From Komagataeibacter sp. FNDCF1 (lineage in GTDB: Bacteria; Pseudomonadota; Alphaproteobacteria; Acetobacterales; Acetobacteraceae), in assembly GCF_021295335.1 (NCBI RefSeq), contig NZ_JAIWOT010000001.1, forward strand, positions 1,553,001-1,617,000: a stretch of DNA of 64,000 bases. Reading direction: 5' to 3'. The translations under genes were made by a program, and so were the position numbers. Below are positions 21,786-50,641 of the stretch, one piece after another; position 1 is the first letter of the stretch, and the number at the start of each line of letters is the position of its first letter. The notes under the pieces were generated by a model. That model was not told where the DNA came from. It did no database searches and worked only from the letters and a program-made list of their open reading frames with translations.

Positions 21786-22590
21786 CTGGCGTTGCCTCTC
21801 ATGCACGTTGGTCCAGCAGGGATGCCGGGGGATACAGGCATGGCCATGCAGGATGCAATAATGCAACCACCGATACCGTTACTCAACGCGGTCCCGCAAC
21901 CTTTTATATCCCTATATTAACGTATGGCAGCCTTACGTTTATTGAACATAATATCCGTAACGGGCATAATTGACATGTTTTGAAAAATATATTCCCAATA
22001 TAAATTACAGAAAACTGCCAGAAATCATGCGCAAAACACCATGCGGGCAGGACCAGTTCCGGATAGCCCGAGTAAATCATGACCAGAAAAACCCTGAAAA
22101 TCTGCGGTTTCCTGTATGGGTATGCGATTCATTTCCGGTCATGGCGTTGTTATTACGCTTTTTTGACGCATATTTATGGAAAACAATTTAATTTATCTAA
22201 TTTCTTAAATTTACTTATTTATTAAAAACATCTATCCGGATGCAAATGGAAAAATCGTATTACTCCTCCCCTGCCCTTCCTATTATTTCCAGACAGACAT
22301 TCTATTCTATCATTCCACCGGGTCAGGATGTCACAAATCTTTCATATACCAGACGCCCGGCAGGGGGCGACAGCAATCCGAACCTGCGCTAGGCTGGCTT
22401 GCGGCATATCCGTTTGATCATGCATCCCGCACGTCGCCATCCCCGCAACCCTTGTAGCAGGACGTCCTTCCTCCACCCGGGACCGGGGTATCTGGCCACC
22501 AGTCAGTCCATTCCATGCACGCCATACGGCAGGGCCGGTGCCTTGCGCCACTGCGTGGCCCTGCCCCCTGAAGGAAAAGATCACAGGCCC
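21786..22590. other. long divergent intergenic region before the FAD dehydrogenase operon and the phosphodiesterase
   Basis: 805 bp. The part at about 21905-22335 is AT-rich and should hold the promoter of the dehydrogenase operon (minus). The right part is GC-rich with only chance frames. A 6-bp inverted repeat with 9-nt spacer (21919-21939) is the only structured site I see. Confidence 0.45.
21919..21939. promoter_or_regulatory. candidate operator upstream of the FAD dehydrogenase operon
   Basis: AACGTA, 9 nt, TACGTT, about 135 bp upstream of the small-subunit start. The centre-to-centre spacing is right for a dimeric regulator. No known consensus matched. Confidence 0.3.
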
Positions 22591-23865: not shown

Positions 23866-24681
23866 TTACTGCCGGGCGGGCTGCCGGCGCACGATCCGCG
23901 TGGCGATGATCATGACGGACAGCGTGATGCCCCATGCAAGGAGCTGGATGCCCATGGGCCGGTCCGAATAGCCAAACAGCGCCTTGGCCGCGCGGCCCGC
24001 CATGCTGCCATCGGACAGCAGCCACGACGTATCCCATATTTCATAACCAAGGGCGGGCAGCAGGTCATCGCCCGCCAGCAGGGCTGCCGCCTGGCTGGCC
24101 ATGCCCGCGGCTAGAAAGGCGATCAGCAGCCCGGTCACGGCAAACAGCCGGTGCAGCGGGATCACGATCAGCCCGCGATACAGCAGCCACGACAGCGCTG
24201 CCCCCGCAAGGATACCCAGCGCGCCACCACCAAGCATGGCCAGCGGCCCGGAATGGGTGGATACGGCAATACCGTACAGGAACAGCACGACCTCCATCCC
24301 CTCCCGCAGAACGGCCACGGCAACCACCACCGCCATGGCGGCAAGCGAACGCTCGCCAGAAGCGACTTCCGCCCCCAGCGCCTTCATGTCGCCTGCCATC
24401 TCACGACCGTGGCGGGTCATCCAGATCATATGCCACCCCAGCATGAGCACGGCGAGGCACAGGATGGTGGCGGAAAAAACGTCCTGCCCGTTGCCCGACA
24501 GAGCCGCCGACAGGCTCCCGGCAAAAACCGCGACAATCGCCGCCCCCACCACACCGGCGGCAATGCCACCGGCCACCCAGCGCCCACGCCCCGGAATGCC
24601 CTGCGTCGCCGCCAGCACGATTCCGACAACAAGGCCTGCTTCCATGACTTCACGGAAAACGATCAGCAGACTTCCCAGCAT
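23866..24681 (-). CDS. FTR1-family iron permease
   Basis: 271 aa with about seven hydrophobic helices. The two REXXE-type iron-binding motifs are visible as REVMEAG near residue 10 and REGMEVVLF in the fourth helix region. FTR1/EfeU permeases import iron across the inner membrane. It starts only 2 bp after the stop of a secreted cupredoxin-type protein, so the two are one operon, replacing the EfeO/EfeB arrangement of other bacteria. A Fur-like site lies upstream of the pair. Ferric or ferrous substrate cannot be told. Confidence 0.9.
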   Translation of the reverse strand: MLGSLLIVFREVMEAGLVVGIVLAATQGIPGRGRWVAGGIAAGVVGAAIVAVFAGSLSAALSGNGQDVFSATILCLAVLMLGWHMIWMTRHGREMAGDMKALGAEVASGERSLAAMAVVVAVAVLREGMEVVLFLYGIAVSTHSGPLAMLGGGALGILAGAALSWLLYRGLIVIPLHRLFAVTGLLIAFLAAGMASQAAALLAGDDLLPALGYEIWDTSWLLSDGSMAGRAAKALFGYSDRPMGIQLLAWGITLSVMIIATRIVRRQPARQ

Positions 24682-24683
24682 GT

Positions 24684-25025
24684 TCAGGGCTCCTGCGTTA
24701 CGGTTACGGTACCCGTTGCCTGATCGGGATGATAGTCATCGAAGAACTTGTAGGTGCCGGGATGCAGCGGGCCTGCATGCACCGTGATCGTGCCGCCCTG
24801 GACCACGATCTTCTCGAATTTCAGGTCGTAGCTCTCGAATTCGTCCGTCGTGTCGTCATGGTTGTCCAGCACGATCAGGAAACGCTGCCCGGCGGGAACG
24901 CTGAAATGGTCCGGCGTGAAATGGTGGTCGCGCACTTCCAGATGCACCGGATCCTGGGCGCGGGCATGCGGCATGAAAATGCATGCGGCAAGGCAGAGGG
25001 TGAGGACAACACTTACATGACGCAT
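24684..25025 (-). CDS. secreted cupredoxin-domain protein (EfeO N-domain-like), iron uptake partner
   Basis: 113 aa. Signal peptide MRHVSVVLTLCLAACIF followed by a single cupredoxin-like beta domain containing DHHFTPDHFSVPAGQRF, FESYDLKFEK and GTYKFFDDYHP. The last segment resembles the metal-binding loop of EfeO/P19-linked cupredoxins, but the standard type-1 copper Cys is absent. The start was chosen by AGGAG about 8 nt upstream; in-frame ATGs further upstream lack this. It probably delivers or oxidises iron for the FTR1 permease encoded directly after it. Confidence 0.8.
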   Translation of the reverse strand: MRHVSVVLTLCLAACIFMPHARAQDPVHLEVRDHHFTPDHFSVPAGQRFLIVLDNHDDTTDEFESYDLKFEKIVVQGGTITVHAGPLHPGTYKFFDDYHPDQATGTVTVTQEP

Positions 25026-25614
25026 GCGGGACACTCCTGTCATACCGCACATAATATGCGACTAATTATTACTGTCAATTTCTGGCATGATCATGCCGGA
25101 CCTGCTTGCCCACGCTGGGCGCGCACGGTCCGGCAATCACGACAGGAATGTACCGCCGCCTGCTGACCAGTCCCGCAATCAGCAATCAGCAGCCTGTTCA
25201 GTCTTTCGCATCAGACGGACGGAGAACAGCCCCGTGCACTGCGCCGGTCGTGCTGGCCTGCGTTCGCAACATCGACAACCTTGGCGCCATGGCCGGTGCG
25301 GTCGCGCGCAGTGCACAGAAACATGCTGGCCTGAACATCCTGCCCGAATACTGCCCCCGATGTGACCGATGCGCCGCCGGGCGCATCTCGCCGCAATGGC
25401 CGGGCGGACGGGTTCGATCCGGATGGATTACGGGACCACGCCCGCGCCGTGCACGAACGGATTGGCCTGCAACCCTGCGCCCGGCCATGCCTTAACTTCC
25501 TGTTATCGGAGCCGTGGTGCCGGAATGCGGGGAAAGCAGACATCTTCGCCAGCCTTCCAGCACGACCCCATGTCACACGCTTCCATGTCGTACCCGTATG
25601 AAAAAGGCTGCCCC
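25026..25614. other. intergenic region, possibly with a decayed reading frame
   Basis: 589 bp between the divergent cupredoxin and glutathione S-transferase genes. Different frames show fragments that look protein-like (for example NIDNLGAMAGAVARSAQKHA near 25270-25330 and GLRDHARAVHERIG near 25425-25465), with no single continuous frame. It may be a frameshifted remnant, but no family is recognised. The left end holds a Fur-like site. Confidence 0.3.
25056..25072. promoter_or_regulatory. candidate Fur box upstream of the iron-uptake pair
   Basis: TGCGACTAATTATTA shares the TGCGA-N-T-N2-TT-N-T-N-A pattern with the site before bfd. It lies about 31-47 bp upstream of the cupredoxin start, suitable for repression. 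Weak as a single site; the shared pattern strengthens it. Confidence 0.35.
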
Positions 25615-26431: not shown

Positions 26432-28054
26432 ATGATTCGTCTCGACAGCATCAGCAAGCATAACGGCCAGCGCCTGGTCTTTATCGAGGCATCCGCCGCC
26501 CTGCAGAAGGGGGAAAAGATCGGGCTGGTCGGCCCCAATGGTGCGGGCAAGACCACGCTTTTCCGCATGATCACGGGGCAGGAAGAACCCGATGAGGGCC
26601 AGATCCTGGTTGATCGTGGCACAACCATCGGCTTCTTCAGCCAGGACGTGGGCGAGATGACGGGCCGCAGCGCCGTGGCCGAGGTCATGGAAGGCGCGGG
26701 GGCGGTATCGGAAGTGGCCCGCGAACTCGCCACGCTGGAAAACGCGCTGGCCGACCCCGAGCAGGCCGACCGGCTCGAGGAAATCCTTGAACGCTTTGGC
26801 GAGGTGCAGGCCCGCTTCGAGGAACTGGGCGGCTACGCGCTGGACAGCAGGGCGCGCGAGGTGCTGCATGGCCTGGGTTTCAGCCAGGACATGATGGATG
26901 GGGATGTCAGCCGCCTGTCGGGCGGGTGGAAGATGCGCGTGGCGCTGGGCCGCATCCTGCTCATGCGCCCCGACGTGATGCTGCTGGATGAACCAAGCAA
27001 CCATCTGGATCTGGAAAGCCTGATCTGGCTGGAGCAGTTTCTGGCAGGCTATGACGGCGCGCTGCTCATGACATCGCATGACCGGGCGTTCATGAACCGG
27101 GTCATCAACAAGGTGATCGAGATTGATGGCGGCGGCCTGACCAGTTTCTCGGGTGATTACGAGTTCTATGAACAGCAGCGCGCCCAGAACGAGAAGCAGC
27201 AGCAGGCCCAGTTCGAACGCCAGCAGGCGGCACTGGCCAAGGAAATCAACTTCATCGAACGCTTCAAGGCCCGCGCCTCGCACGCAGCCCAGGTGCAGAG
27301 CCGGGTCAAGAAGCTGGAAAAGATCGACCGCGTGGAGCCCCCCAAGCGGCGGCAGGCGGTCAGCTTCGAGTTCCAGCCCGCCCCCCGCTCGGGCGAGGAC
27401 GTGGTCAGGCTGCGTGGCGTGGACAAGCGTTACGGCAGCCGCGTGATCTACCACGATCTTGACCTGCTGGTGCGCCGCAGGGAACGGTGCTGCATCCTTG
27501 GCGTCAATGGCGCGGGCAAGTCCACCCTGCTCAAGCTGGTAACCGGCACGACCGAACCCGATGCCGGCACGGTCACGCTGGGAGGCAGCGTGAAGATGGG
27601 CTATTTCGCCCAGCACGCCATGGATCTGCTGGATGGCGGCCGCACGGTGTTCGAGACGCTGGACGATGCCTTCCCGCTGGCCAGCCAGGGTTCGCTGCGG
27701 GCGCTTGCGGGCAGCTTCGGGTTTTCGGGCGATGAGGTGGAAAAAAGCTGCCGCGTACTTTCGGGTGGTGAGAAGGCACGGCTGGTCATGGCGCTCATGC
27801 TGTTCGACCCGCCCAATTTTCTGGTGCTGGATGAACCGACCAACCATCTGGACATCGCCACCAAGGAAATGCTGATCACCGCCCTTGCACGGTACGAAGG
27901 CACCATGCTGTTCGTTTCGCATGACCGGCATTTCCTCTCCGCCCTGTCCAACCGGGTGCTGGAACTGACACCGGACGGCATTCACCAGTATGATGGTGGC
28001 TATACGGAATATGTTGCCCGCACCGGGCAGGAAGCACCGGGGCTGCATGCCTGA
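26432..28054 (+). CDS. ABC-F family ATPase
   Basis: 540 aa with two ATP-binding cassettes and no membrane segments. First cassette: Walker A GPNGAGKTT (about residue 35), signature LSGGWKMRVALGR and Walker B LLLDEPSNHLDLES. An inter-domain linker rich in Gln/Glu/Arg follows. Second cassette: GVNGAGKST, LSGGEKARLVMALM and LVLDEPTNHLDI. ABC-F proteins bind the ribosome E site and help clear stalled or difficult translation. The start has AGAGGATCC just upstream. It follows the GST gene on the same strand by about 120 bp. I cannot distinguish EttA/Uup/YheS/YbiT sub-branches. Confidence 0.93.
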   Translation: MIRLDSISKHNGQRLVFIEASAALQKGEKIGLVGPNGAGKTTLFRMITGQEEPDEGQILVDRGTTIGFFSQDVGEMTGRSAVAEVMEGAGAVSEVARELATLENALADPEQADRLEEILERFGEVQARFEELGGYALDSRAREVLHGLGFSQDMMDGDVSRLSGGWKMRVALGRILLMRPDVMLLDEPSNHLDLESLIWLEQFLAGYDGALLMTSHDRAFMNRVINKVIEIDGGGLTSFSGDYEFYEQQRAQNEKQQQAQFERQQAALAKEINFIERFKARASHAAQVQSRVKKLEKIDRVEPPKRRQAVSFEFQPAPRSGEDVVRLRGVDKRYGSRVIYHDLDLLVRRRERCCILGVNGAGKSTLLKLVTGTTEPDAGTVTLGGSVKMGYFAQHAMDLLDGGRTVFETLDDAFPLASQGSLRALAGSFGFSGDEVEKSCRVLSGGEKARLVMALMLFDPPNFLVLDEPTNHLDIATKEMLITALARYEGTMLFVSHDRHFLSALSNRVLELTPDGIHQYDGGYTEYVARTGQEAPGLHA

Positions 28055-28124
28055 ATACAGGCAGGGGGACGGTTCTGGCCGTTATGCAGGAAAATCCTGC
28101 CATGCCTGATGATATCACCTTGAT

Positions 28125-28144
28125 AATACCATAGGGGGGTATAA
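28125..28144. promoter_or_regulatory. candidate CsoR operator before copA
   Basis: ATACC-ATAGGGG-GGTAT: an inverted repeat flanking a G-tract, the typical architecture of CsoR/RcnR operators. It ends 32 bp upstream of the copA start and overlaps the likely -10 element (TATAAC). The csoR gene lies in the same operon. Confidence 0.65.
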
Positions 28145-28175
28145 CGTCCGGACGATGTGCAGACGGAGCGGACCC

Positions 28176-30554
28176 ATGCCCCAGACCCTTGCTTTCCCTG
28201 TTGGCGGCATGTCATGCGCCGCCTGCGCCGCACGTATCGAAAAGGTCCTGAACCGGCAGGCAGGGGTGCATGCCACCGCCAACCTTGCCACCGGGCACGT
28301 GCAGGTGACGCTGGACACACCTGACGCTACACCGGAAAACGTGGTCGCAGCCATCCGCAGGGCCGGATTTACGGTGGGGGAACAGGCCATCGACCTGTCC
28401 ATAACCGGCATGTCATGCGCGGCCTGCGCGGCCCGGATCGAGAAAGTGCTGGGCCGCCTGCCCCTGACACACGTCAGTGTCAATCTTGCCACCGGGCGTG
28501 CGCATGTCGTTTTCGTGCCTGGCGTGACCGATGCCGCAACCCTGATCGCCCGTATTGAAAAGGCGGGCTACGGCGCGAAACCCGTTGAGGATATGCCACA
28601 GGTCGACCCCCGCGCGGCACGCATGCGGGAATGGCGCGCTGCATGCCGCCAGTTTGGCCTGACGCTTGTGCTGTCGCTTCCCTTCTGGGTCCAGATGGTG
28701 CTGATGCTGGCAGGCTCCATGCGCATGATGCCCGGCTGGCTGCAATGGATGCTGGCAACGCCCGTGCAGTTCTACTGCGCGCGGCAGATGTACCAGCGCG
28801 CATGGCATGCGCTGCGCGGTGGCGGGGCGAACATGGATGTACTGGTCGTGCTGGGCACCGGTATCGCCTATGGCTTCAGTGCGGTCGTGATCATGCTGGG
28901 CCTGCGCCAGCCGGTTTACTTCGAGGCCAGTGTCACGATCATCACACTGATCTCGCTGGGCAGGCTCATGGAAAACCGTGCACGGAACCAGACTGGCGCG
29001 GGTCTGGAAAGCCTTCTGCGGCTGCAGCCCCGGCTTGCCCATGTGCAGGTCGGGAATACCGTTGTGGACCGGCCCGTGGCTGATATGCGCGTGGGCGATG
29101 TGTTCCTTGTCCGCCCCGGCGAGAACATTCCGGTCGATGGCACGGTCACGCAGGGCGCATCGGATGTCAACGAAGCCATGCTGACGGGTGAGAGCCTGCC
29201 CGTGCTCAAGCAGCCGGGCAGCACAATCTTTGGCGGCACAACCAATACCACGGGCGCATTGCGCGCAACAGCCACCGGCGTGGGCCGCGACACGGCGCTG
29301 GCCCATATCGTGCGGATGGTGGAGCAGGCCCAGGGGTCGAAGGCCGCGGTGCAGCGGCTGGTGGACAGGATATCCAGCATCTTCGTGCCGACCGTACTGG
29401 CCATCGCGCTTGTGACCCTTTTGGCAGGGTGGTTTGTTACCGGCAATGCGGGGTGGAGCATCGTCTCCGCCGTATCGGTTCTGGTGATCGCCTGCCCGTG
29501 CTCGCTGGGTCTTGCAACGCCTACGGCCATCATGGTGGGCACCGGACTGGGTGCGCGGGCGGGCATCCTGTTCCGCAACGCCGATGCGCTGGAACAGGCA
29601 CAGAAGCTGACCACCCTGATCATGGACAAGACCGGCACGCTGACACAGGGCAGGCCGGATGTGAGCGATGTCCTGCCCATGCCCGGGGTTACGGAACATG
29701 CCCTGCTGGCCACGGCGCATGCGCTGGAACACAATTCCGAACACCCGCTGGCCCGCGCCATCGTGGCGCATGCGCTGGCAGGTGGCGTGGCCGCGGCCCC
29801 CGCAACGGATTTTACCGCCATACCGGGCATGGGGGTTACCGCGCGGATTAGCGGCGTGACGGCGTGCCTTGGCTCACCCCGCTTCCTGGCGGACAGCAAT
29901 GTCGTGCAGGACACCACCCTGACCGACCGGCTGGAACAGGAAGGCAAGACCACGATTGGTGTCGCCATGGATGGGCGGCTCATGGGTTACATCGCCCTGT
30001 CCGACCGGCTGCGCCCCGATGCGGCAGCAACCGTCAGCATGCTCAGGGCCGCCGGGATCAGGGTCATCATGCTGACGGGTGACAACGCGCGTACGGCCCG
30101 GGTGGTGGCCCGCCAGGTGGGGGTGGATGACTACCGCGCGGGCGTGCTGCCAGCCGACAAGGCGCAGGCGGTCACGAAATACCGCGCCGGAAACGCCGTG
30201 GTCGGCATGGTGGGGGATGGGATAAACGACGCCCCCGCGCTGGCGGCGGCGGATGTCGGCTTCGCCATCGGGGGCGGGGCCGCCATTGCGCTGGATACCG
30301 CCGACATCATCCTGATGCGTAGCGAACTGGCCAGTGTGCCGGATGCCATTGCCCTCTCGCGCGCAACGATCGCCAAGATCCGCCAGAACCTGTTCTTTGC
30401 CTTCATCTACAACATTCTCGGCCTGCCGCTGGCGGCTTTCGGGCTGCTCAACCCGATTGTGGCAGGGGCCGCCATGGCCATGAGTTCCGTATCCGTTGTC
30501 TGCAACTCGCTCCTGCTCAACCGCTGGAAACCACGCTCCCGCCCCGTTGCCTGA
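28176..30554 (+). CDS. copA: copper-exporting P1B-type ATPase
   Basis: 792 aa. Two N-terminal heavy-metal domains carry GMSCAACAARIEKVL (about residues 11 and 80). The transmembrane part includes the metal site CPCSLGLATPTA (about 439), the CPC motif of Cu+ ATPases. DKTGTLT (about 484) holds the phosphorylated Asp, HPLARAIV the ATP-binding HP motif, and GDGINDAPALAAADVG (about 678) the hinge. It exports Cu+ from the cytosol to the periplasm, where the oxidase at 31586 can act. The start was chosen because the first metal domain follows directly. A CsoR-type operator sits upstream and csoR follows at 100 bp. Confidence 0.97.
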   Translation: MPQTLAFPVGGMSCAACAARIEKVLNRQAGVHATANLATGHVQVTLDTPDATPENVVAAIRRAGFTVGEQAIDLSITGMSCAACAARIEKVLGRLPLTHVSVNLATGRAHVVFVPGVTDAATLIARIEKAGYGAKPVEDMPQVDPRAARMREWRAACRQFGLTLVLSLPFWVQMVLMLAGSMRMMPGWLQWMLATPVQFYCARQMYQRAWHALRGGGANMDVLVVLGTGIAYGFSAVVIMLGLRQPVYFEASVTIITLISLGRLMENRARNQTGAGLESLLRLQPRLAHVQVGNTVVDRPVADMRVGDVFLVRPGENIPVDGTVTQGASDVNEAMLTGESLPVLKQPGSTIFGGTTNTTGALRATATGVGRDTALAHIVRMVEQAQGSKAAVQRLVDRISSIFVPTVLAIALVTLLAGWFVTGNAGWSIVSAVSVLVIACPCSLGLATPTAIMVGTGLGARAGILFRNADALEQAQKLTTLIMDKTGTLTQGRPDVSDVLPMPGVTEHALLATAHALEHNSEHPLARAIVAHALAGGVAAAPATDFTAIPGMGVTARISGVTACLGSPRFLADSNVVQDTTLTDRLEQEGKTTIGVAMDGRLMGYIALSDRLRPDAAATVSMLRAAGIRVIMLTGDNARTARVVARQVGVDDYRAGVLPADKAQAVTKYRAGNAVVGMVGDGINDAPALAAADVGFAIGGGAAIALDTADIILMRSELASVPDAIALSRATIAKIRQNLFFAFIYNILGLPLAAFGLLNPIVAGAAMAMSSVSVVCNSLLLNRWKPRSRPVA

Positions 30555-30653
30555 ACTCCGGACCGGCGCCGGTTTCACGGCCCGGCGGGCATGCGTGGCA
30601 TTGGCCACCCCAGGCTGGTATCGTGGCCCCGACATGACCCGGAGGAACATTGA

Positions 30654-30995
30654 ATGGCCGATAACCGGCAGGCTGTAGAGGAACCCGCCAACTGCGCGCA
30701 CTGTGCCCCGCCATCCGGCGGGAAAAAGGTCGAACAGCCCAACAAGAAAGCCCTGATCAACCGCATGCGCCGTATCGAAGGCCAGATGGGCGGCGTACGG
30801 AACATGATCGAGGAGGATCGTTACTGCGTTGATATCCTGACCCAGGTCTCGGCCATAAAGGCCGCGCTGGACGGGGTCGCCATCCAGATCCTGTCCAGCC
30901 ACGCCAAAGGCTGCGTGCGCGCCGCAGTACTGGAGGATGGCGGTGATGATGTGATTGAGGAAATGCTGGAAATCGTGCGCAAGCTGATCCGCTGA
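30654..30995 (+). CDS. csoR: copper-sensing repressor, CsoR/FrmR family
   Basis: 113 aa, all-helical. The core has RMRRIEGQMGGVRNMIEEDRYCVDILTQVSAIKAAL and SSHAKGCV, giving the Cys (about 57), His (about 82) and Cys (about 86) Cu+ ligands of CsoR (C-H-C). The first 30 residues hold an extra CAHC pair not typical of the family, a possible additional metal site. Apo-CsoR represses DNA with C/G-tract inverted repeats; copper releases it. It lies 99 bp after copA, between two matching candidate operators (28125-28144 and 31063-31082). Confidence 0.9.
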   Translation: MADNRQAVEEPANCAHCAPPSGGKKVEQPNKKALINRMRRIEGQMGGVRNMIEEDRYCVDILTQVSAIKAALDGVAIQILSSHAKGCVRAAVLEDGGDDVIEEMLEIVRKLIR

Positions 30996-31062
30996 CAGAT
31001 GCGACGGGCCCGTACATGGCACCATACGCGGTTACACCGGCAAAGCCGAGAAAACGCTTTCC

Positions 31063-31082
31063 ATATGCCCCCCATGGGTATT
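31063..31082. promoter_or_regulatory. second candidate CsoR operator before the copper oxidase group
   Basis: The 20-bp site reads ATATG-CCCCCC-ATGGGTATT. On the opposite strand the copA site reads ATACC-CCCC-TATGGTAT, so both share ATA, a C-tract, an ATGG step and GTATT. It is followed at once by TATAAA, a good -10 element, and lies 47 bp upstream of the secreted-protein gene. Confidence 0.55.
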
Positions 31083-31129
31083 ATAAAAACCGTGTTTGCG
31101 CGTGGTCCATCTGTGCACGGGAGCCCTGA

Positions 31130-31507
31130 ATGGTCAGGACACATGGCCGGATCTGGATTGGTCTGCTGGCCTGGCTGCTGGTACAGGCCGGGTTGCTGGT
31201 CGGTTCCATTCCCGTACCGGCGCAGGCCCGCACGCCCCTGATCACCTGTACACAGACCGACGAACCACAATGCATGACGGCGGCGGCCCATGCCACGCAC
31301 ATGGCGCACATGCACCACAGGCAGCCATCGGGCAGCGAGACATGCTGCCATGTCCATGCGGCCACGGATATTCCATCCCCCACCACGCCGTACCTGATTG
31401 CCCGCCCCATTGCGGGTAACGGGGCCTTCATACCCCACAGACAGGTCCAGCCCGCGGGCAGCGACCGGCTGCCCCTGCTGCGCCCGCCAAGGAACCGGAA
31501 CGCATAG
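31130..31507 (+). CDS. small secreted protein rich in His, Met and Cys, copper locus
   Basis: 125 aa. Signal-like start (IGLLAWLLVQAGLLVGS) with probable cleavage after PAQA. The mature part holds HATHMAHMHH, CCHVH and scattered Met/Cys, giving many soft-metal ligands, then a Pro/Arg-rich tail. No family recognised. Its place between csoR and the multicopper oxidase, downstream of a candidate CsoR site, suggests a periplasmic copper buffer or chaperone, but this is inference. Start supported by GGGAG 6 nt upstream. Confidence 0.6.
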   Translation: MVRTHGRIWIGLLAWLLVQAGLLVGSIPVPAQARTPLITCTQTDEPQCMTAAAHATHMAHMHHRQPSGSETCCHVHAATDIPSPTTPYLIARPIAGNGAFIPHRQVQPAGSDRLPLLRPPRNRNA

Positions 31508-31585
31508 GCGCCGCAGGGCACCTTCCATGCCCCCGGTGGCCTGGCGCCACCGGGTTCCTGACCGTTTCACCTCCGGATTTTCCTC

Positions 31586-33526
31586 ATGCATATTCCCACG
31601 CGCATGCGCGGTGGCCTGACACGCCGCCGTTTCGTGACGGGGCTGGGCGCGGGCGGCCTTGTCGCGGCCCTGCCCCGCCTGTCCCATGCCCATGGCGGGC
31701 CCACGGGCATGGTTCCAGCCACATCCCGTGCCGCATGGAACCTGAATGTCGGCCGCACCCGCATCACGATTGATGACAAGACACTCCATGCTCCCTGCAT
31801 CGGGGGGCAGGTCCCCGGCCCCATCCTGCGCTGGCGGGAGGGGGATACGCTTGCCCTGACGGTAACCAATACGCTCAGGGATGAAGATACATCCATCCAC
31901 TGGCACGGCATCCGCCTGCCGTACAACATGGATGGCGTACCGGGGCTGAGCTTTACCGGCATCCCGCCGGGTGAAAGCTTTACCTACCGCTTTCCCGTAA
32001 GCCAGAGCGGAACCTACTGGTACCACAGCCATTCCGGCATGCAGGAGGCACAGGGGCTGTACGGTGCGGTGGTGATCGACCCCCTGCGCCCCGACCCCCA
32101 TGCCTGCGCGCGCGATTACGTGATCGTACTGTCCGAATGGACGGATGTGTCCCCCATGGACATGATCAGCAATCTCAAGATGCAGGATGACTACTATGTC
32201 TTCCGCCAGCGTACGGCAGCCTCCCTTGCGCATGACGCACGGGCGGCGGGCGGCCTGCTGCCTGCGCTAAGGGACCGGCTGGCCTGGTCACGCATGCGCA
32301 TGGCGGCAACCGATATTTCAGATGTGACCGGCATCATCTACACCTATCTCATGAACGGTCATGCCCCGGACATGAACTGGAGCGGACTGTTCCGCCCCGG
32401 CGAGCGGGTACGGCTGCGCTTCATCAATGCATCGTCCATGACCTTTTTCGATATCCGCATACCGGGGCTGGAAATGCTGGTGGTGCAGGCGGACGGCAAC
32501 GAAGTCGAACCCGTGCCGGTGGACGAATTCCGCATCGGGGTGGCGGAAACCTATGACGTGATCGTCCAGCCACGCGAGAACACGGCCTATACCATCTTTG
32601 CCCAGAGCGAGGACCGCACCGGCCATGCCCGCGGCACGCTGGCCCCCCGCCCCGGCATGGTCGGCCCGATCCCGCCCATGGACCCGCGCCCGGTGCGCAC
32701 CATGGTCGATATGGGCATGGGCGACATGAAACCGGGCAGCGGCATGAAGGGCATGGCCATGCCGGACGAAACACCGGGCCACACCATGCAGCACACGGAC
32801 ATGGCGGACATGAAGCCGGACCACGGCATGCAGCATATGGACATGCCGGATACGAAGCCGGACCACGCCACGAAGCCCATGGACATGACGGGCATGAAAC
32901 AGGGCCACGACATGCAGGACATGGACATGTCGGACATGGAAATGGACGACAGCATGCCGGGTATGGACAAGGGACATGCCATGCCTGCGGATACGCCCGT
33001 GCTGGAAATCGATGACCCGGGACCACCGCCACTGAACGTGGAAAACCAGAATGTGGCCCGCATGCCGGTCAACCGCTTGGGCAGCCCCGGCGACGGGCTG
33101 GAGAACAATGGCCGCCGCGTGCTGAATTACCGGCAGCTGCGCGCCACCCGGCCCGGCACGGACCCGCGCCCGCCCACGCGTGAGATCATCCTGCACCTGA
33201 CCGGCAACATGGAACGCTACATATGGGGCTTCAATGGCCGGAAGTTTTCCGAATCCGGGCCAATCCGCCTGAAGCGCAACGAACGGGTGCGCTTTACCCT
33301 GATCAATGACACGATGATGGAACACCCGATCCACCTGCATGGGCTGTGGAGCGAACTGGAAAACGGACAGGGGGATTACCGCCCGTACAAGCACACCATC
33401 ATCTCCCAGCCCGGCTCCCGGCTGAGCTATCTGGTCACCGCCGATGCGCCGGGCATGTGGGCCTATCACTGCCATCTGATGCTACATATGGAACTGGGCA
33501 TGTTCCGCACGGTGATCGTGGAATGA
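31586..33526 (+). CDS. copA: periplasmic multicopper oxidase of copper resistance (PcoA/CopA type)
   Basis: 646 aa. Tat signal RRRFVTGLGAGGLVAALPRLSHAHG. Three cupredoxin domains carry the copper sites: HWHGIRLP (about 108), HSHSG (about 147), HPIHLHGLW (about 579) and HCHLMLHMELGM (about 627). Between domains 2 and 3 (about 371-468) lies a long Met/His/Asp-rich repeat (MDM, HTDM, KPDHGMQHMDM units), much longer than a simple loop and likely to bind Cu+. The enzyme oxidises toxic Cu+ to Cu2+ in the periplasm. It shares a 4-bp ATGA overlap with copB. Symbol copA is the resistance gene, not the ATPase. Confidence 0.92.
   Translation: MHIPTRMRGGLTRRRFVTGLGAGGLVAALPRLSHAHGGPTGMVPATSRAAWNLNVGRTRITIDDKTLHAPCIGGQVPGPILRWREGDTLALTVTNTLRDEDTSIHWHGIRLPYNMDGVPGLSFTGIPPGESFTYRFPVSQSGTYWYHSHSGMQEAQGLYGAVVIDPLRPDPHACARDYVIVLSEWTDVSPMDMISNLKMQDDYYVFRQRTAASLAHDARAAGGLLPALRDRLAWSRMRMAATDISDVTGIIYTYLMNGHAPDMNWSGLFRPGERVRLRFINASSMTFFDIRIPGLEMLVVQADGNEVEPVPVDEFRIGVAETYDVIVQPRENTAYTIFAQSEDRTGHARGTLAPRPGMVGPIPPMDPRPVRTMVDMGMGDMKPGSGMKGMAMPDETPGHTMQHTDMADMKPDHGMQHMDMPDTKPDHATKPMDMTGMKQGHDMQDMDMSDMEMDDSMPGMDKGHAMPADTPVLEIDDPGPPPLNVENQNVARMPVNRLGSPGDGLENNGRRVLNYRQLRATRPGTDPRPPTREIILHLTGNMERYIWGFNGRKFSESGPIRLKRNERVRFTLINDTMMEHPIHLHGLWSELENGQGDYRPYKHTIISQPGSRLSYLVTADAPGMWAYHCHLMLHMELGMFRTVIVE
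32700..32990 (+). repeat. Met/His/Asp-rich degenerate repeat inside the multicopper oxidase
   Basis: Encodes about 97 residues of imperfect units such as HTMQHTDMADMKPDH, GMQHMDMPDTKPDH and ATKPMDMTGMKQGH, each about 14-16 residues. The DNA repeats loosely (ATGGACATG-type words), so unit number may vary between strains. Confidence 0.7.
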
Positions 33527-34410
33527 GGCGCGTGATCCAGATCGTGGCCCTGCTGTCACTGTCATCCGGCATGGGCGCGACCGCACTGGCGCAGCCCACC
33601 AGTCCAGGCAGCACCAGCACCAGCACCAGCACCAGCACCAGCACCAGCACCAGCACCAGCATGGTTGCCACGGGCATGGCCATTCACAAGGGGCCCCGTC
33701 GCGCTCCCGCCTATCATGCCGCCGATGCGCCATCCACCACGCCGGTGGTCTATCTGGGCAACATGAAACCGGTCATGGACCATGCCCGCTACTTCCACGG
33801 CATCATGGATGAACTGGAGGGACGTTATTCCCCCAATGGAACGGACTTCCGCTGGGATGGGGAAGCGTGGTACGGCACCGACTACAATAGAATCTGGCTG
33901 AAATCGGAAGGTACTCTGGAACGGGGGCGGCTGCATGACGGGGATCATGAACTGCTGTACAGCCGGGCAATCTCATCCTATTTCAACCTGCAGGGCGGCG
34001 TGCGCGCGGATATTGATGACGGCCCGACCCGCACATGGGGCGCGCTGGGGGTGCAGGGGCTTGCCCTTTACCAGTTCGAATTCCAGGCCACGGCCTATGT
34101 CAGTGACCGGGGCCGGTTTGCCACCCGGATCGAGGGTTCATATGATTTCCTGCTGACCAACCGGCTGATCCTGCAGCCCCAGGCGGAATTCAACCTCTAT
34201 ACAAAATCCGATCCCGCGCGGCAGGTTGGCGCGGGGCTGTCCGATGTCGATACCGGGCTGCGGCTGCGTTATGAAATATGGCGCAAATTCGCACCCTATG
34301 TTGCCGTATCCTATTCCGGTTACCTGACACAGGCGCGCCGGATCGTGCACGACCAGCATGATGAGACAGGTTCGCTGCGGTTCAGCTTCGGCGTTCGTGG
34401 CTGGTTCTGA
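33523..34410 (+). CDS. copB: copper resistance outer-membrane protein B
   Basis: 295 aa. Signal peptide IQIVALLSLSSGMGATALAQ, then a Ser-Thr repeat tract, then the CopB/PcoB domain with FRWDGEAWYGTDYNRIWLKSEG, ELLYSRAISSYFNLQGG and a C-terminal AFGVRGWF-like end (SFGVRGWF), which fits an outer-membrane beta barrel. It is thought to bind or export copper at the outer membrane, working with the oxidase. The ATG overlaps the oxidase stop (ATGA), so the two are coupled. The N-terminal Met/His-rich region seen in many CopB proteins is replaced here by the Ser-Thr tract. Confidence 0.9.
   Translation: MRRVIQIVALLSLSSGMGATALAQPTSPGSTSTSTSTSTSTSTSTSMVATGMAIHKGPRRAPAYHAADAPSTTPVVYLGNMKPVMDHARYFHGIMDELEGRYSPNGTDFRWDGEAWYGTDYNRIWLKSEGTLERGRLHDGDHELLYSRAISSYFNLQGGVRADIDDGPTRTWGALGVQGLALYQFEFQATAYVSDRGRFATRIEGSYDFLLTNRLILQPQAEFNLYTKSDPARQVGAGLSDVDTGLRLRYEIWRKFAPYVAVSYSGYLTQARRIVHDQHDETGSLRFSFGVRGWF
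33610..33660 (+). repeat. AGCACC hexanucleotide microsatellite in copB
   Basis: 51 bp, 8.5 copies of AGCACC, encoding an alternating Ser-Thr tract right after the signal peptide. Copy-number change would alter linker length but keep the frame. Confidence 0.9.
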
Positions 34411-34563
34411 TACGCCTGCACCACAAGCACGCCCTGCCGGTCCTGCACCGGCAGGGGCCTTGCGGGCATATGCGGGGCGGAAAGGCTGCGCGCCATCAAC
34501 CGAACCGAAAGATTTTCAGGAAATGATGGGTCTGTTCCCCATGCTCCGAAATGGAATTTCCCG

Positions 34564-36015
34564 ATGCCCCCCAGGATCGCCCGGCGCAGTTTCTTTAATA
34601 TCAATTACGTCATTATCATCTGCATACTGCCCATTACAGTAAGTAAAAATGGTTCCTGCGCAGATAATTACGATATCGAGATCATCCCTTCCGGCAATAT
34701 TCCCGCACATGACATTGCAGGCGCCCCCGCACACCTGATCCACGCCGACGAACAGCCGGACGCCAATACCCCAGAAGACGGCAGGGTGGTTGAAAGCGCG
34801 CGCAACGGCGTGTCGCTTTACCGTTATACGCAAAATAACATGCGCCTGACATCCAATTTGTTCAGCCAGTTTGAAAATCGCTACAACGGCCCCCTCCATC
34901 CCGACCAGAACAATGTCTGGTTCTATTCCACGACCGGCGTGGACACGGCGTTCAACCCGGTCAGGGGCTATCAGGGCAATACGTCCACGCTGCGCCTGGA
35001 CCTCAACGGTTTCAGCCAGGCGGCGGCAGGCAGTTTTGATATCGCGCTCCAGTCCAATGCCTACCGCCATGGCACTGCATGGACATGGGGCAACCTGAGC
35101 GTGATCGAGGAACTGACCAACGAGATGCTGCGCGCGCATGATACACAGGAATGGGTGGGGGAATGGGACCTGTCGGGTTTTGGCAATGACAGTCCGGCCT
35201 CCGCCCATAACCCGATGGCAGCGTTGCGGCATGGCTTCGTGTTTTCCACATGGAACAGTGGCGGTGGCTATGGCACGCAATGGCAGGCGGCCCACACCTA
35301 CAGGCAGGGAGATGCGGTGGAGGCCGGGATTGACGGCACGCTCTACTCCTTCATCGCCGTGCGCGGCGGTGTGTCGGGCGGCATGCCCCCGCCCTTTGCC
35401 GTGACAGCGGACCCGGCGCAGATCACCAGCCCCGACACCGGGCATGCCATACCCGACGGGACCCTGGCATGGGCGTTCAACGGCCGCATGCTCATGCAGG
35501 TCGGGTGCATGATCTGCATCAGCTACCAGCCCGACATGCTGCATGCCCCCGACAGGGGCATGCCGGCCGACCCCAGGACGGGAAAACGCATTCCCGTGGC
35601 CTTTGGCACCCTGCTTACGGGCGATGCGCCGGTGTACAATGCGGCACTGGATTTCAGCGTACTGCCCTATCTGGACGGCGTGCATGTCTTTACCCGCACA
35701 CAGCGCGACAGTTACCTGGATTTCTCGGCGGATGGCACGACGGGGGGACGGAACAACCATCTTCTGGGCTATGACAGTGCCCTGCACACCCTGACCTACA
35801 GGGTACGGGGCGCAACCGTGCTGAGCATAAGGGATGACGGAACACTCGTCTCCGCCGCCCCCGCGCGGATGCCCGTCATGACGCGCGCGCGGATCCGCAC
35901 CCTTCCCGCGCCGCAGCCGGGCATGGAAATATATGACAGCGATGATGATGCGCCAGCACTCTACACGCACGGGGGCTGGAAACTGATCCCGCTCGCCCCC
36001 ATGCCCCATGGATAG
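34564..36015 (+). CDS. exported protein with phage-tail-like segments, unknown function
   Basis: 483 aa. The N-terminus has a hydrophobic run (INYVIIICILPITV) like a signal or anchor. The middle holds beta-rich text (TGVDTAFNPVRGYQGNTSTL) and WQAAHTYRQGDAVEA...TLYSFIAVRGGVSG, which resembles the small carbohydrate-binding modules in phage tail and tail-fibre proteins. The end, MEIYDSDDDAPALYTHGGWKLIPL, also resembles tail-fibre termini. No other phage genes are nearby. It sits between copB and the IS-split GST, separated by 153 and 130 bp. A surface or secreted glycan-binding role is possible; function is unknown. Confidence 0.55.
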   Translation: MPPRIARRSFFNINYVIIICILPITVSKNGSCADNYDIEIIPSGNIPAHDIAGAPAHLIHADEQPDANTPEDGRVVESARNGVSLYRYTQNNMRLTSNLFSQFENRYNGPLHPDQNNVWFYSTTGVDTAFNPVRGYQGNTSTLRLDLNGFSQAAAGSFDIALQSNAYRHGTAWTWGNLSVIEELTNEMLRAHDTQEWVGEWDLSGFGNDSPASAHNPMAALRHGFVFSTWNSGGGYGTQWQAAHTYRQGDAVEAGIDGTLYSFIAVRGGVSGGMPPPFAVTADPAQITSPDTGHAIPDGTLAWAFNGRMLMQVGCMICISYQPDMLHAPDRGMPADPRTGKRIPVAFGTLLTGDAPVYNAALDFSVLPYLDGVHVFTRTQRDSYLDFSADGTTGGRNNHLLGYDSALHTLTYRVRGATVLSIRDDGTLVSAAPARMPVMTRARIRTLPAPQPGMEIYDSDDDAPALYTHGGWKLIPLAPMPHG

Positions 36016-48859: not shown

Positions 48860-50641
48860 ATGTTTCGGATATTTATGATGGATACATCAAACATGGACAG
48901 GAAAGAACCTTATGCCCTGATGAGCTTCCATGGTTCCGTCATGGTCATGCGCGACGGCGTCTGCCAGTTACAGGACCCGCGCAACGTAACCCCCGATGAC
49001 TGCCTGCACATTCAGCCCGAAAACATCCGTCTGGGTAAAACCATCATCAATTCCAGGAGCTTCTCGACGGATTTCCACACCGGCCGCGACACCGTTTCAT
49101 TTTCCCATGGCGGCACATTCCTGACGGCGGAAGCCGATGGCAGCCTGACCACCACCGCGACCGCATGCCAGGCGTGGGAGCACTTCCGTCTTGTGCCGCT
49201 TTCGTCCCTTGTCACGTTCCATGCCGCCATGCAGGCATTCTGGCGGGCGGAGGATGACAGCATCCGGGTCCGTGGCGTGCATATCCATACCCTGCCCGAT
49301 TTCTGGATACGCTTCGGCCCCTTCCGGTTCCCGCTGGAACAGATTGACCAGGTGATGAAAGACGGGACAGTCACAATCGGGAAATCCCTCTCCGCAACCC
49401 CGCATGACCTTGTGTTCCATCATGACACATCGCCTGCCGGCCACACGCCCGTCATCTGGATCAAACCGCTGGGCAATACGGCCAACCGGGCCATGCAGTA
49501 CCTTGTTGCACGGCACATCCAGCACAGCGTGCCCCATGCGACGATAGAAAACATATTCCTGCCGGAATGGAATATTGATACCCGTACACCGCCGCTTCCG
49601 CTTGAAAACGGGTGCCGGCTCGGGTGGGACCGGTTCTGGATCGACATCGCGGGACTGGCGGACTGCCTGCGGCGCGGGGTGATCGAGACGCTTTTCCTGG
49701 ACAGTTTCAGTTTCAATATCGACCATATCCCCCCGCGTGCCATATGCAGGCGGATCCTGCCTGCCACCACCATGGCGGAAGATGTGGAGGTATTCGGCCC
49801 CGATACGATCGTGTGCAACATCCGGGCGGGGGAAGTACTGGAGAACGCCCATCCCGACTATATTGTCCTGCCGCCAGAATATTACAGGCTTGTCGTACAG
49901 GACTGTGGTCTGGAACCGGTCTTCTTTGGCCAGCTGGATGACAATGCCTATGTGGACTCCCTCCGCCGGGCCTTCCCCCATGCCCGGTTCATACATGGCC
50001 GGGGGCCGGAGCATGATTTTGCCGTACTCCAGCGTGCGGCGAACATTGCCATTTCGGTCAGTACGTTCTCGTGGCTTGCCGCATGGCTGGGATCAGCCCA
50101 GAGGGTGTACATGCCGCTGGGGGGCATGTTCAATCCCAACCAGAACAAGCTGCAGAACTTCATGCCACTGGAAGAGCAGGATTTCCGGTTTGTCCTGCTT
50201 CCCACCTGTCAGGCAGAAAACCTGTACCGCAACCCGGAGCAATTTTTCCACAAACAGGCGTTCCTGGGGCACAATGCCCGTATCCTGACCCGCGGGCAGG
50301 CCAGGAAACTGCTGGACAGAAGCCGCCGGCACTGGCCCCCGCAGCCGCTGGTCTACGGCTTTGATGCCGCCTATTACACGGCGGCGCATCCTGAAGTGCA
50401 GGATGAATTACACAACGGCCTGCCCAGCGCACTGGAGCATTACATGCATAATGGCTTCCATCGCGGGTATGCTCCCCATCCGTTCGATGCGACGTTTTAC
50501 GGCATGACCCATCCGGATGCGGCGCTGGCGGTTGCACAAGGTCATTATGCCTCGCTTCACGAACATTATCAGAAAAAGGGCATCTTCCTGGGTTATGAAG
50601 CCTGCCCCGCCGGGAAACGGGACCAGACAGGACAGAACTGA
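48860..50641 (+). CDS. GT11-like (fucosyltransferase-type) protein with C-terminal repeats
   Basis: 593 aa. VIWIKPLGNTANRAMQYLVARHIQ (about 206-230) matches the GxLGNQMFQYA motif of GT11 alpha-1,2-fucosyltransferases. VCNIRAGEVLENAHPDYIVL recalls their HxRRGDY stretch and ISVSTFSWLAAWLGSAQ their SxxSFSWW loop. The last 100 residues carry two units of an FDAxYYxxxHPxVxxxxxxG...HYxxxG pattern, a repeat often added to surface glycosyltransferases. N-terminal 190 residues are not recognised. Likely builds an exopolysaccharide or modifies surface glycans. The codon-12 Met is an alternative start. Confidence 0.6.
   Translation: MFRIFMMDTSNMDRKEPYALMSFHGSVMVMRDGVCQLQDPRNVTPDDCLHIQPENIRLGKTIINSRSFSTDFHTGRDTVSFSHGGTFLTAEADGSLTTTATACQAWEHFRLVPLSSLVTFHAAMQAFWRAEDDSIRVRGVHIHTLPDFWIRFGPFRFPLEQIDQVMKDGTVTIGKSLSATPHDLVFHHDTSPAGHTPVIWIKPLGNTANRAMQYLVARHIQHSVPHATIENIFLPEWNIDTRTPPLPLENGCRLGWDRFWIDIAGLADCLRRGVIETLFLDSFSFNIDHIPPRAICRRILPATTMAEDVEVFGPDTIVCNIRAGEVLENAHPDYIVLPPEYYRLVVQDCGLEPVFFGQLDDNAYVDSLRRAFPHARFIHGRGPEHDFAVLQRAANIAISVSTFSWLAAWLGSAQRVYMPLGGMFNPNQNKLQNFMPLEEQDFRFVLLPTCQAENLYRNPEQFFHKQAFLGHNARILTRGQARKLLDRSRRHWPPQPLVYGFDAAYYTAAHPEVQDELHNGLPSALEHYMHNGFHRGYAPHPFDATFYGMTHPDAALAVAQGHYASLHEHYQKKGIFLGYEACPAGKRDQTGQN

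Follow-up and report, generated by a model that had tools for sequence, protein, structure and literature searches.

The stretch of DNA that we analysed (the window, 64,000 nucleotides) holds a copper locus in which copA, csoR, a leader gene, an oxidase gene and copB lie in that order, all on the + strand. copA (28176 to 30554) encodes a P1B-type copper ATPase with two HMA domains, as shown by its open reading frame (ORF), profile matches and alignment. Its frame is open from 28155, and the start at 28176 was preferred because GGAG precedes it and the alignment agrees; among the matches listed, K. rhaeticus (L003) was nearest for copA, at 85%. csoR (30654 to 30995) encodes a copper-sensing repressor identified by profile search with PF02583. 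A 125-residue exported, CutF/CopL-like leader protein (31130 to 31507) is followed by a PcoA/CopA-type multicopper oxidase (31586 to 33526; TIGR01480), whose N-terminus, TRRRFVTG, is twin-arginine-like by eye, and by CopB, copper resistance protein B (33523 to 34410; PF05275). Predicted CsoR operators precede copA (site 1, 28125 to 28144, − strand) and the leader gene (site 2, 31063 to 31082, + strand).

Some further features of the region were seen alongside. An FTR1/EfeU-type iron permease lies beside a small cupredoxin-like protein (23866 to 25052, − strand), at a distance of a few kb upstream from the copper locus. The oxidase has a long Met/His/Asp-rich stretch at about 32700 to 33000, where many relatives' matches break. 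Close to the copB start (about 33610 to 33670), tandem ACCAGC repeats encode a Ser-Thr run and are a candidate for slippage. The oxidase/copB region is also found on an Acetobacter aceti plasmid, as shown by a search of 3752 plasmid records.

CsoR is the only PF02583 protein encoded in the genome and scored 100.7 bits against a cut-off of 22.8. In a gap-free alignment, its Y57, C58, H83, C87 and E103 fall at the positions that we take to be the C-H-C Cu(I) ligands and the Tyr/Glu second shell of M. tuberculosis CsoR. Solved CsoR structures (4m1p, 4adz and 2hh7) ranked first as matches, with InrS fourth, and among NCBIfam profiles RicR scored higher than FrmR and RcnR, all three below their own cut-offs. 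By these comparisons the protein appears closest to CsoR rather than to RcnR, FrmR or InrS. As a scan of the window for operators found none in the gap after copA, csoR is probably part of the copA transcript and autoregulated. Outside the PF02583 match, an N-terminal extension of CsoR contains a CxxC pair, NCAHC (residues 13–17, 30690 to 30704), for which the relatives L191, L192 and L193 have CTQC, CVQC and CHHC; this pair is possibly a second metal or redox site.

Site 1 reads AATACCATAGGGGGGTATAA (reverse complement TTATACCCCCCTATGGTATT) and site 2 reads ATATGCCCCCCATGGGTATT. Direct reading of the sequence placed both sites where the original prediction had put them, with csoR in between. 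That prediction also stated that, once one site is reverse-complemented, the two share ATA, a six-base C or G tract, ATGG and GTATT. All four elements are present in both sites and, with the C tract as anchor, the tract and GTATT are in register, as is a TAT 5' of the tract; ATA is displaced by two bases and ATGG by one, which means that the resemblance had been slightly overstated. The cores are ATACCATAGGGGGGTAT at site 1 (28126 to 28142) and ATGCCCCCCATGGGTAT at site 2 (31065 to 31081). Type 2 CsoR sites, in the part of PMC3902906 available to us, have a 5'-TAC/GTA-3' repeat spanning 9 bases around G tracts. Site 1 has this layout (TAC-N9-GTA, with the G/C tract inside). Site 2 departs from the strict form by one base with the spacing kept (TGC-N9-GTA), and because TGC replaces TAC, our claim of full operator strength is lowered there. 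By the S. lividans CsoR consensus from the same partial source, ATATACCCCTNAGGGGTATAT, site 1 scored only 13/20, and two unrelated places in the window scored 14.

Searches of the 3.74 Mb genome with ATRCCCCCCNNNGGTAT gave exactly two exact matches, sites 1 and 2, and thus no third regulon member with the exact pattern. When up to two mismatches were allowed, there were 24 + 26 matches versus 16 + 16 for a reversed control pattern, and the looser ATRCCN{3,8}GGTAT gave 40 + 40 versus 21 + 21. Genome enrichment was absent for ATACCCNNNNNGGGTAT with up to two mismatches (84 + 84 versus 87 + 87 for the control), and ATANNCCCCCC alone was not significant in the window (1 found versus 0.89 expected). 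The exact form of the site is specific to the copper locus and loose matches mean little; since loose patterns match often, it is the exact form, together with conservation, that carries the regulon claim. Twelve of the many near matches were checked (L092–L097, L194–L199), of which 11 lie inside an ORF of at least 100 residues on at least one strand and one, L196, lies outside. Within the window, a site at 50111 (PWM score 18.2) was set aside as lying within a 593-codon ORF, and one at 21951 (PWM 14.9) as being without a G/C tract. The latter (21951 to 21967) is a weaker operator-like sequence that lies 5' of a − strand gene; next after that gene comes what looks by eye like a GMC-type oxidoreductase.

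Both sites are flanked by sequences that we read by eye as promoter elements: CTTGAT (28119 to 28124) and TATAAC (28140 to 28145) at site 1, and CTTTCC (31057 to 31062) and TATTAT (31079 to 31084) at site 2. A sigma-70-like scan of 27950 to 34700 found 3 matches versus 2.2 expected, none on the + strand at either operator and one on the − strand at 31109 to 31080. The −35/−10 placements at both operators are our own reading, for which conservation provides the sole backing.

Conservation was assessed in relatives found by a CsoR search of genome contigs; at least 558 were confirmed, and the best 80 of these were analysed (L002–L037, L039 and L040 are acetic acid bacteria and L038 is Stutzerimonas). 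One yardstick, taken from outside these loci, was the published S. lividans consensus (at least 14/20, within 250 nt upstream), a Streptomyces pattern from a source available in part. By this measure, in the acetic acid bacteria among the best 80 of at least 558 relatives, a site preceded copA in 17/21 and the small gene in 21/24, but csoR in 2/38 and the oxidase in 1/29; in the other taxa of this set the counts were 12/15 for copA, 1/42 for csoR and 0/1 for the oxidase. A PWM, trained on related loci chosen with a similar pattern, scored above 15 in the same best 80 before copA in 18/21 (exceptions L025, L027 and L028), before the small gene in 22/24 (exceptions L020 and L027) and before csoR in 2/38, both of these sites being shared with a divergent copA.

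Alignments made without motif input, from hand-picked close relatives, showed the operator as the main conserved block in 10 leader and 11 copA upstream regions, together with an upstream CTT, a TATA-like element and a ribosome-binding site. Gene order varied: in L029 and L033, copA and csoR are divergent and flank the site, and L031, L032, L035 and L040 have a single site between copA and the leader. Among the matches listed, the equivalents of site 2 lie −64 to −66 from the start codon in six Komagataeibacter and two Acetobacter loci. The original prediction had proposed a scan of related genomes for the shared motif and had named loss of the C tract in related strains as grounds for refuting it. 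The scan found sites kept both upstream of copA and upstream of the unit formed by the small gene, the oxidase and copB, and the tract is kept in Komagataeibacter; in Gluconobacter and Acetobacter it is often split in two, a form that is still type 2. In L101 (G117), which has no leader candidate by the rule given below, the operator lies directly before the oxidase (−43). Conservation in relatives is the strongest argument against chance, and that the likeness of the two sites merely reflects a GC-rich genome is hardly credible: loose patterns do match often, but the exact form occurs only at the copper locus and is kept through different gene orders, and conservation was looked for and found.

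Does the site before the oxidase follow the presence of csoR? A related oxidase is encoded in 60 of 200 family genomes, and a close csoR (1e-30 or better) occurs in 10. A site was called within 850 nt upstream of the oxidase unit at PWM ≥10, and a genome without a CsoR hit had none at 1e-6. The site was present in 9/9 genomes with close csoR and in 0/33 without a CsoR hit (Fisher 2e-9, a value that ignores kinship, the csoR genomes being few and related), and at PWM ≥15 in 8/9 versus 0/33; these PWM figures are partly circular because two of the nine csoR genomes, G184 and G030, match the training loci L014 and L029. By the published consensus, the counts were 8/9 versus 1/33. Rows dropped from the 60 were G073, G174 and G035 (oxidase start not found) and G009 and G059 (contig ends), and 14 rows whose CsoR hits were only weak were placed outside the Fisher test. 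Of these, 3/14 have a site, namely G001, G037 and one of the two G079 copies, which has a CsoR-like gene next to it. The site is present in the csoR genomes of genus g31 (G030 and G117) and absent in G169 of that genus, which is without a CsoR hit. In G022 and G025, csoR and the oxidase share a contig but lie far apart, and the site persists, albeit weak in G025 (10.7). G079 carries two oxidase copies, with the operator only beside its CsoR-like (39% identity) and copA-like genes; the second copy has no site. The aligned CsoR-like segments of G001, G037 and G079 are identical, perhaps through recent transfer.

The single CsoR regulon covering copA, the oxidase and copB, as first proposed, is supported by the sole PF02583 protein, by the conserved sites and by their presence where csoR is present. 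It is a well-supported prediction of a regulon of known kind, and CsoR control of both promoters is very probable. Alternatively, a CueR-like or two-component (e.g. CopRS) regulator might drive both promoters, with CsoR incidental. In E. coli, CueR controls CopA, and in A. tumefaciens a CueR-like activator does so (PMC5057107, in the part available). CueR-like matches that reach 1e-25 or better but stay below the cut-off occur in 5 of the 10 genomes with close csoR. However, CueR had no match in the 3.74 Mb genome, its cut-off was reached by 52 of the 200 family genomes but by none of the 10 with close csoR, and the operator type and position suit a repressor within the spacer, so that we consider another regulator very improbable.

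CsoR systems of this kind have been described elsewhere. The present locus resembles type 2 systems of S. lividans and others (PMC3902906, seen in part) in the TAC-N9-GTA spacing of site 1, the G/C tract inside TA-rich arms and the Cu-type ligand positions, and differs in its unbroken six-base tract, in the TGC arm of site 2 and in having RMRR where RLXR is common in CsoRs. In Bradyrhizobium liaoningense, an alphaproteobacterial CsoR represses a Cu ATPase (PMC5057107, seen in part), as proposed here, and the csoR-cueA box, TATACCCnnnnnGGGTATA, resembles the sites of the Acetobacter and Gluconobacter relatives. Unlike here, csoR and the ATPase gene diverge from one box in that species, and its oxidase gene copA is, in the part of the paper available, not placed under CsoR. 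Among the papers found, titles and abstract openings contained nothing on CsoR in Gluconobacter or acetic acid bacteria.

The off-consensus arm of site 2 recurs in relatives. A hand count among the matches listed included each strain a single time, excluded Gluconobacter, G025, G117 and four Acetobacter sites that the small gene shares with copA (all TGC), and entered the G022 and G048 sites without regard to their neighbours. It gave TGC in 10/13 sites before the small gene versus 0/14 before copA. In these 10 sites the odd arm faces away from the small gene. The TGC arm may allow the second promoter to be opened more readily, or it could mean weak or no binding at site 2. If the latter, site 2 would be a decayed copy, with only the copA operator working and the oxidase controlled by the leader alone or by an unseen regulator. 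Changes to the TAC/GTA dyad abolished detectable binding by S. lividans CsoR (PMC3902906, in the part available), and leaders also exist in genomes without a CsoR hit, e.g. G054, G131 and G169. Against this, the equivalents of site 2 keep their sequence and their distance from the start codon and track csoR presence, and a TGC arm that recurs before the small gene and not before copA argues against decay. We therefore regard a defunct site 2 as improbable.

The first gene of the second transcript had been described in the original prediction simply as encoding a secreted protein. A small exported protein is consistent with its hydrophobic N-terminus, but that description was incomplete, as a probable role as a CutF/CopL-type leader had been overlooked. 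CutF, a small protein that is exported, combines a Cys motif with a proline-rich end (PEPEGPPPRL; PMC8456105) and controls CutO translation in cis via RNA structure (PMC9973294; both papers available in part). The CutF-like rule from PMC9973294 (<150 residues, PP in the last 15, a signal peptide and a same-strand gene within 1000 nt) captures the leader, which has 125 residues, PP at 119–120, a same-strand gene 78 nt on and a signal peptide judged by hydrophobicity only. It has a His/Met-rich stretch, a C-terminal LRPPR and, in place of a CXXXC copper motif, CCHVH; variants of the Cys motif occur among CutF relatives (PMC8456105, in part).

No Pfam or NCBIfam family matched the leader of the window. 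Homologues found by similarity alone had PP near the end and a CC pair in 24/24 cases. In a wider set of 27, partly chosen by PP, invariance was confined to the start Met, an Ala, C72 from the CC pair and P119–P120, the last Pro-Pro. DUF2946 (PF11162) matched 10/27 leaders weakly (best 4e-4) and the CopL profile (NF033807) 5/27 (best 2e-6); the window leader matched neither. With the leader-calling rule, revised ahead of the pairing test after doubtful ORFs at L005 and L125, a leader was found before 55 of the 79 oxidase loci with a located start, and 24 were without. We conclude that the small gene is probably a regulatory leader.

Known leaders are similar in several respects, as far as the parts of the papers available go. 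The CutF-CutO system of Rhodobacter capsulatus (PMC9973294, PMC8456105) likewise has a small exported Cys-motif protein with a C-terminal proline motif before a multicopper oxidase, and RNA structure at the oxidase start. It differs in having CXXXC rather than CCHVH, in its stem-loop between the genes, where the proposed anti-RBS here lies in leader codons after Pro-Pro, and in the CsoR operator found upstream here. In Xanthomonas and Stenotrophomonas, the CopL leader gene is needed for copper-regulated expression of the copper oxidase CopA(B) (PMC9973294); the NCBIfam CopL_fam matches are those to 5/27 leaders, the window leader being without one. CruR of Bordetella pertussis is a copper-sensing leader with a C-terminal proline motif (RAPP) and Rho-dependent termination, in which copper turns the operon off (PMC9426467), and arrest at RAPP has been shown (PMC12992588); the leaders here mostly have P-P-K/R before a detoxification gene. 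The LRPP of the window leader is neither the CutF end nor CruR-type RAPP.

To look for RNA structure at the oxidase start, we compared each leader end with its own and with swapped oxidase starts, because whole-region folding showed no excess stability versus shuffles (z 0.15). The 84 loci, including the window and two strain duplicates (L014/L104 and L029/L107), comprised 55 with a leader, 24 without and 5 in which no start was located, and the 55 were reduced to 37 non-redundant loci. Leader ends paired with the 40 nt 5' of their own oxidase with a total of −584.7 (swaps: mean −474.3, sd 17.6), and with the 25 nt 5' of the ATG with −459.6 (swaps: −332.0, sd 15.3); in both cases 0/20000 swaps were as good, and none was as good when swaps were made within GC quartiles. 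At single loci, only 11 or 14 of the 37 fell below z −1.64.

In Komagataeibacter, the predicted helix is fixed: it joins the ten bases after the second Pro codon to a ten-base stretch whose 3' end is 3 to 5 nt short of the ATG, with 9 or 10 of 10 pairs in 9/9 sequences. The fixed register was used because MAFFT misaligned the oxidase start region, and it was located on the oxidase side with a typed pattern, which brings mild circularity. Three of the 10 pairs changed on both sides (25/500 shuffles reach 3) and 91.3% of positions were paired (9/500 shuffles reach that), while the number of pair types was not above shuffles (288 of 500). Sliding the helix by one base reduced pairing to 76 or 51%, with no double changes. 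In the window, the proposed anti-RBS AGGAACCGGA (31490 to 31499, directly 3' of the second Pro codon) would pair with TCCGGATTTT (31572 to 31581), which ends 4 nt 5' of the oxidase ATG, and a 9-bp hairpin, CCCGGTGGC-CTGGC-GCCACCGGG (31532 to 31554), lies within this proposed long-range helix. The window's own pairing (9/10 pairs) was not significant versus shuffles (z −0.3 and −1.0), and over a longer stretch its best duplex takes another partner, with 18% of swaps as good. Base pairing involving the oxidase start region is thus a family-level proposal, supported by covariation across relatives and weak in the window alone.

The small exported protein might instead be a periplasmic copper-binding or oxidase-maturation factor acting in trans, with the pairing a sign of ordinary translational coupling. 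Its signal-like N-terminus, its His/Met/Cys content and its place before the oxidase are in keeping with such a role, and translational coupling could likewise select for nearby pairing. We nevertheless think a factor acting in trans rather unlikely, given that the invariant residues include a CC-pair Cys and the last Pro-Pro in a set partly chosen by PP, that the Komagataeibacter pairing starts directly after Pro-Pro, and that CutF needs both motifs and its gene works only in cis (PMC9973294, PMC8456105, in the parts available).

The best overall explanation, which we consider quite likely, is that one CsoR controls two transcripts, copA-csoR and leader-oxidase-copB, with a leader layer added on the second. 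Apo-CsoR would sit on a type 2 operator within the −35/−10 spacer of each promoter, and cytoplasmic Cu(I), bound by C58, H83 and C87, would release it, so that both transcripts are made, csoR included as feedback. On the second transcript, the product of the first gene would be an exported leader that contains Cys and His and terminates in R-P-P-R, and the ten bases directly 3' of the Pro-Pro codons would pair with the oxidase start region. The ribosome may pause at Pro-Pro as the nascent leader encounters copper in the periplasm; judging by the size of its footprint, it would then cover the bases that follow. By covering the anti-RBS it would free the oxidase start, as proposed for CutF/CutO; the direction of the copper effect on oxidase translation is what we infer from this scheme. 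Such a leader mechanism at the oxidase is reasonably probable, and two-layer copper control of the oxidase, at the promoter and at translation, is likely.

More tentatively, and at somewhat less than even confidence, acetic acid bacteria may read copper in two compartments before the oxidase is made, sensing cytoplasmic Cu(I) via CsoR at the promoter and periplasmic copper via the nascent exported leader. The recurrent off-consensus TGC arm would set the oxidase promoter apart from that of copA under CsoR, and an anti-RBS built into the leader's own last codons would be masked by the paused ribosome. Because some genomes with leaders lack csoR, CsoR control would be a later addition to an operon that its leader already governed.

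If this is true, copper defence in vinegar- and cellulose-producing bacteria would use one repressor and two promoters, perhaps of different operator strength, with the leader adding a periplasmic check on the oxidase. The covariation points to particular bases as the anti-RBS in a leader of the CutF kind, so that a few point changes in a harmless bacterium could test the mechanism, and parts of the locus could become copper-inducible expression tools for acetic acid bacteria. It is the leader layer that raises the interest of the locus, as it would place two copper checks on one oxidase.
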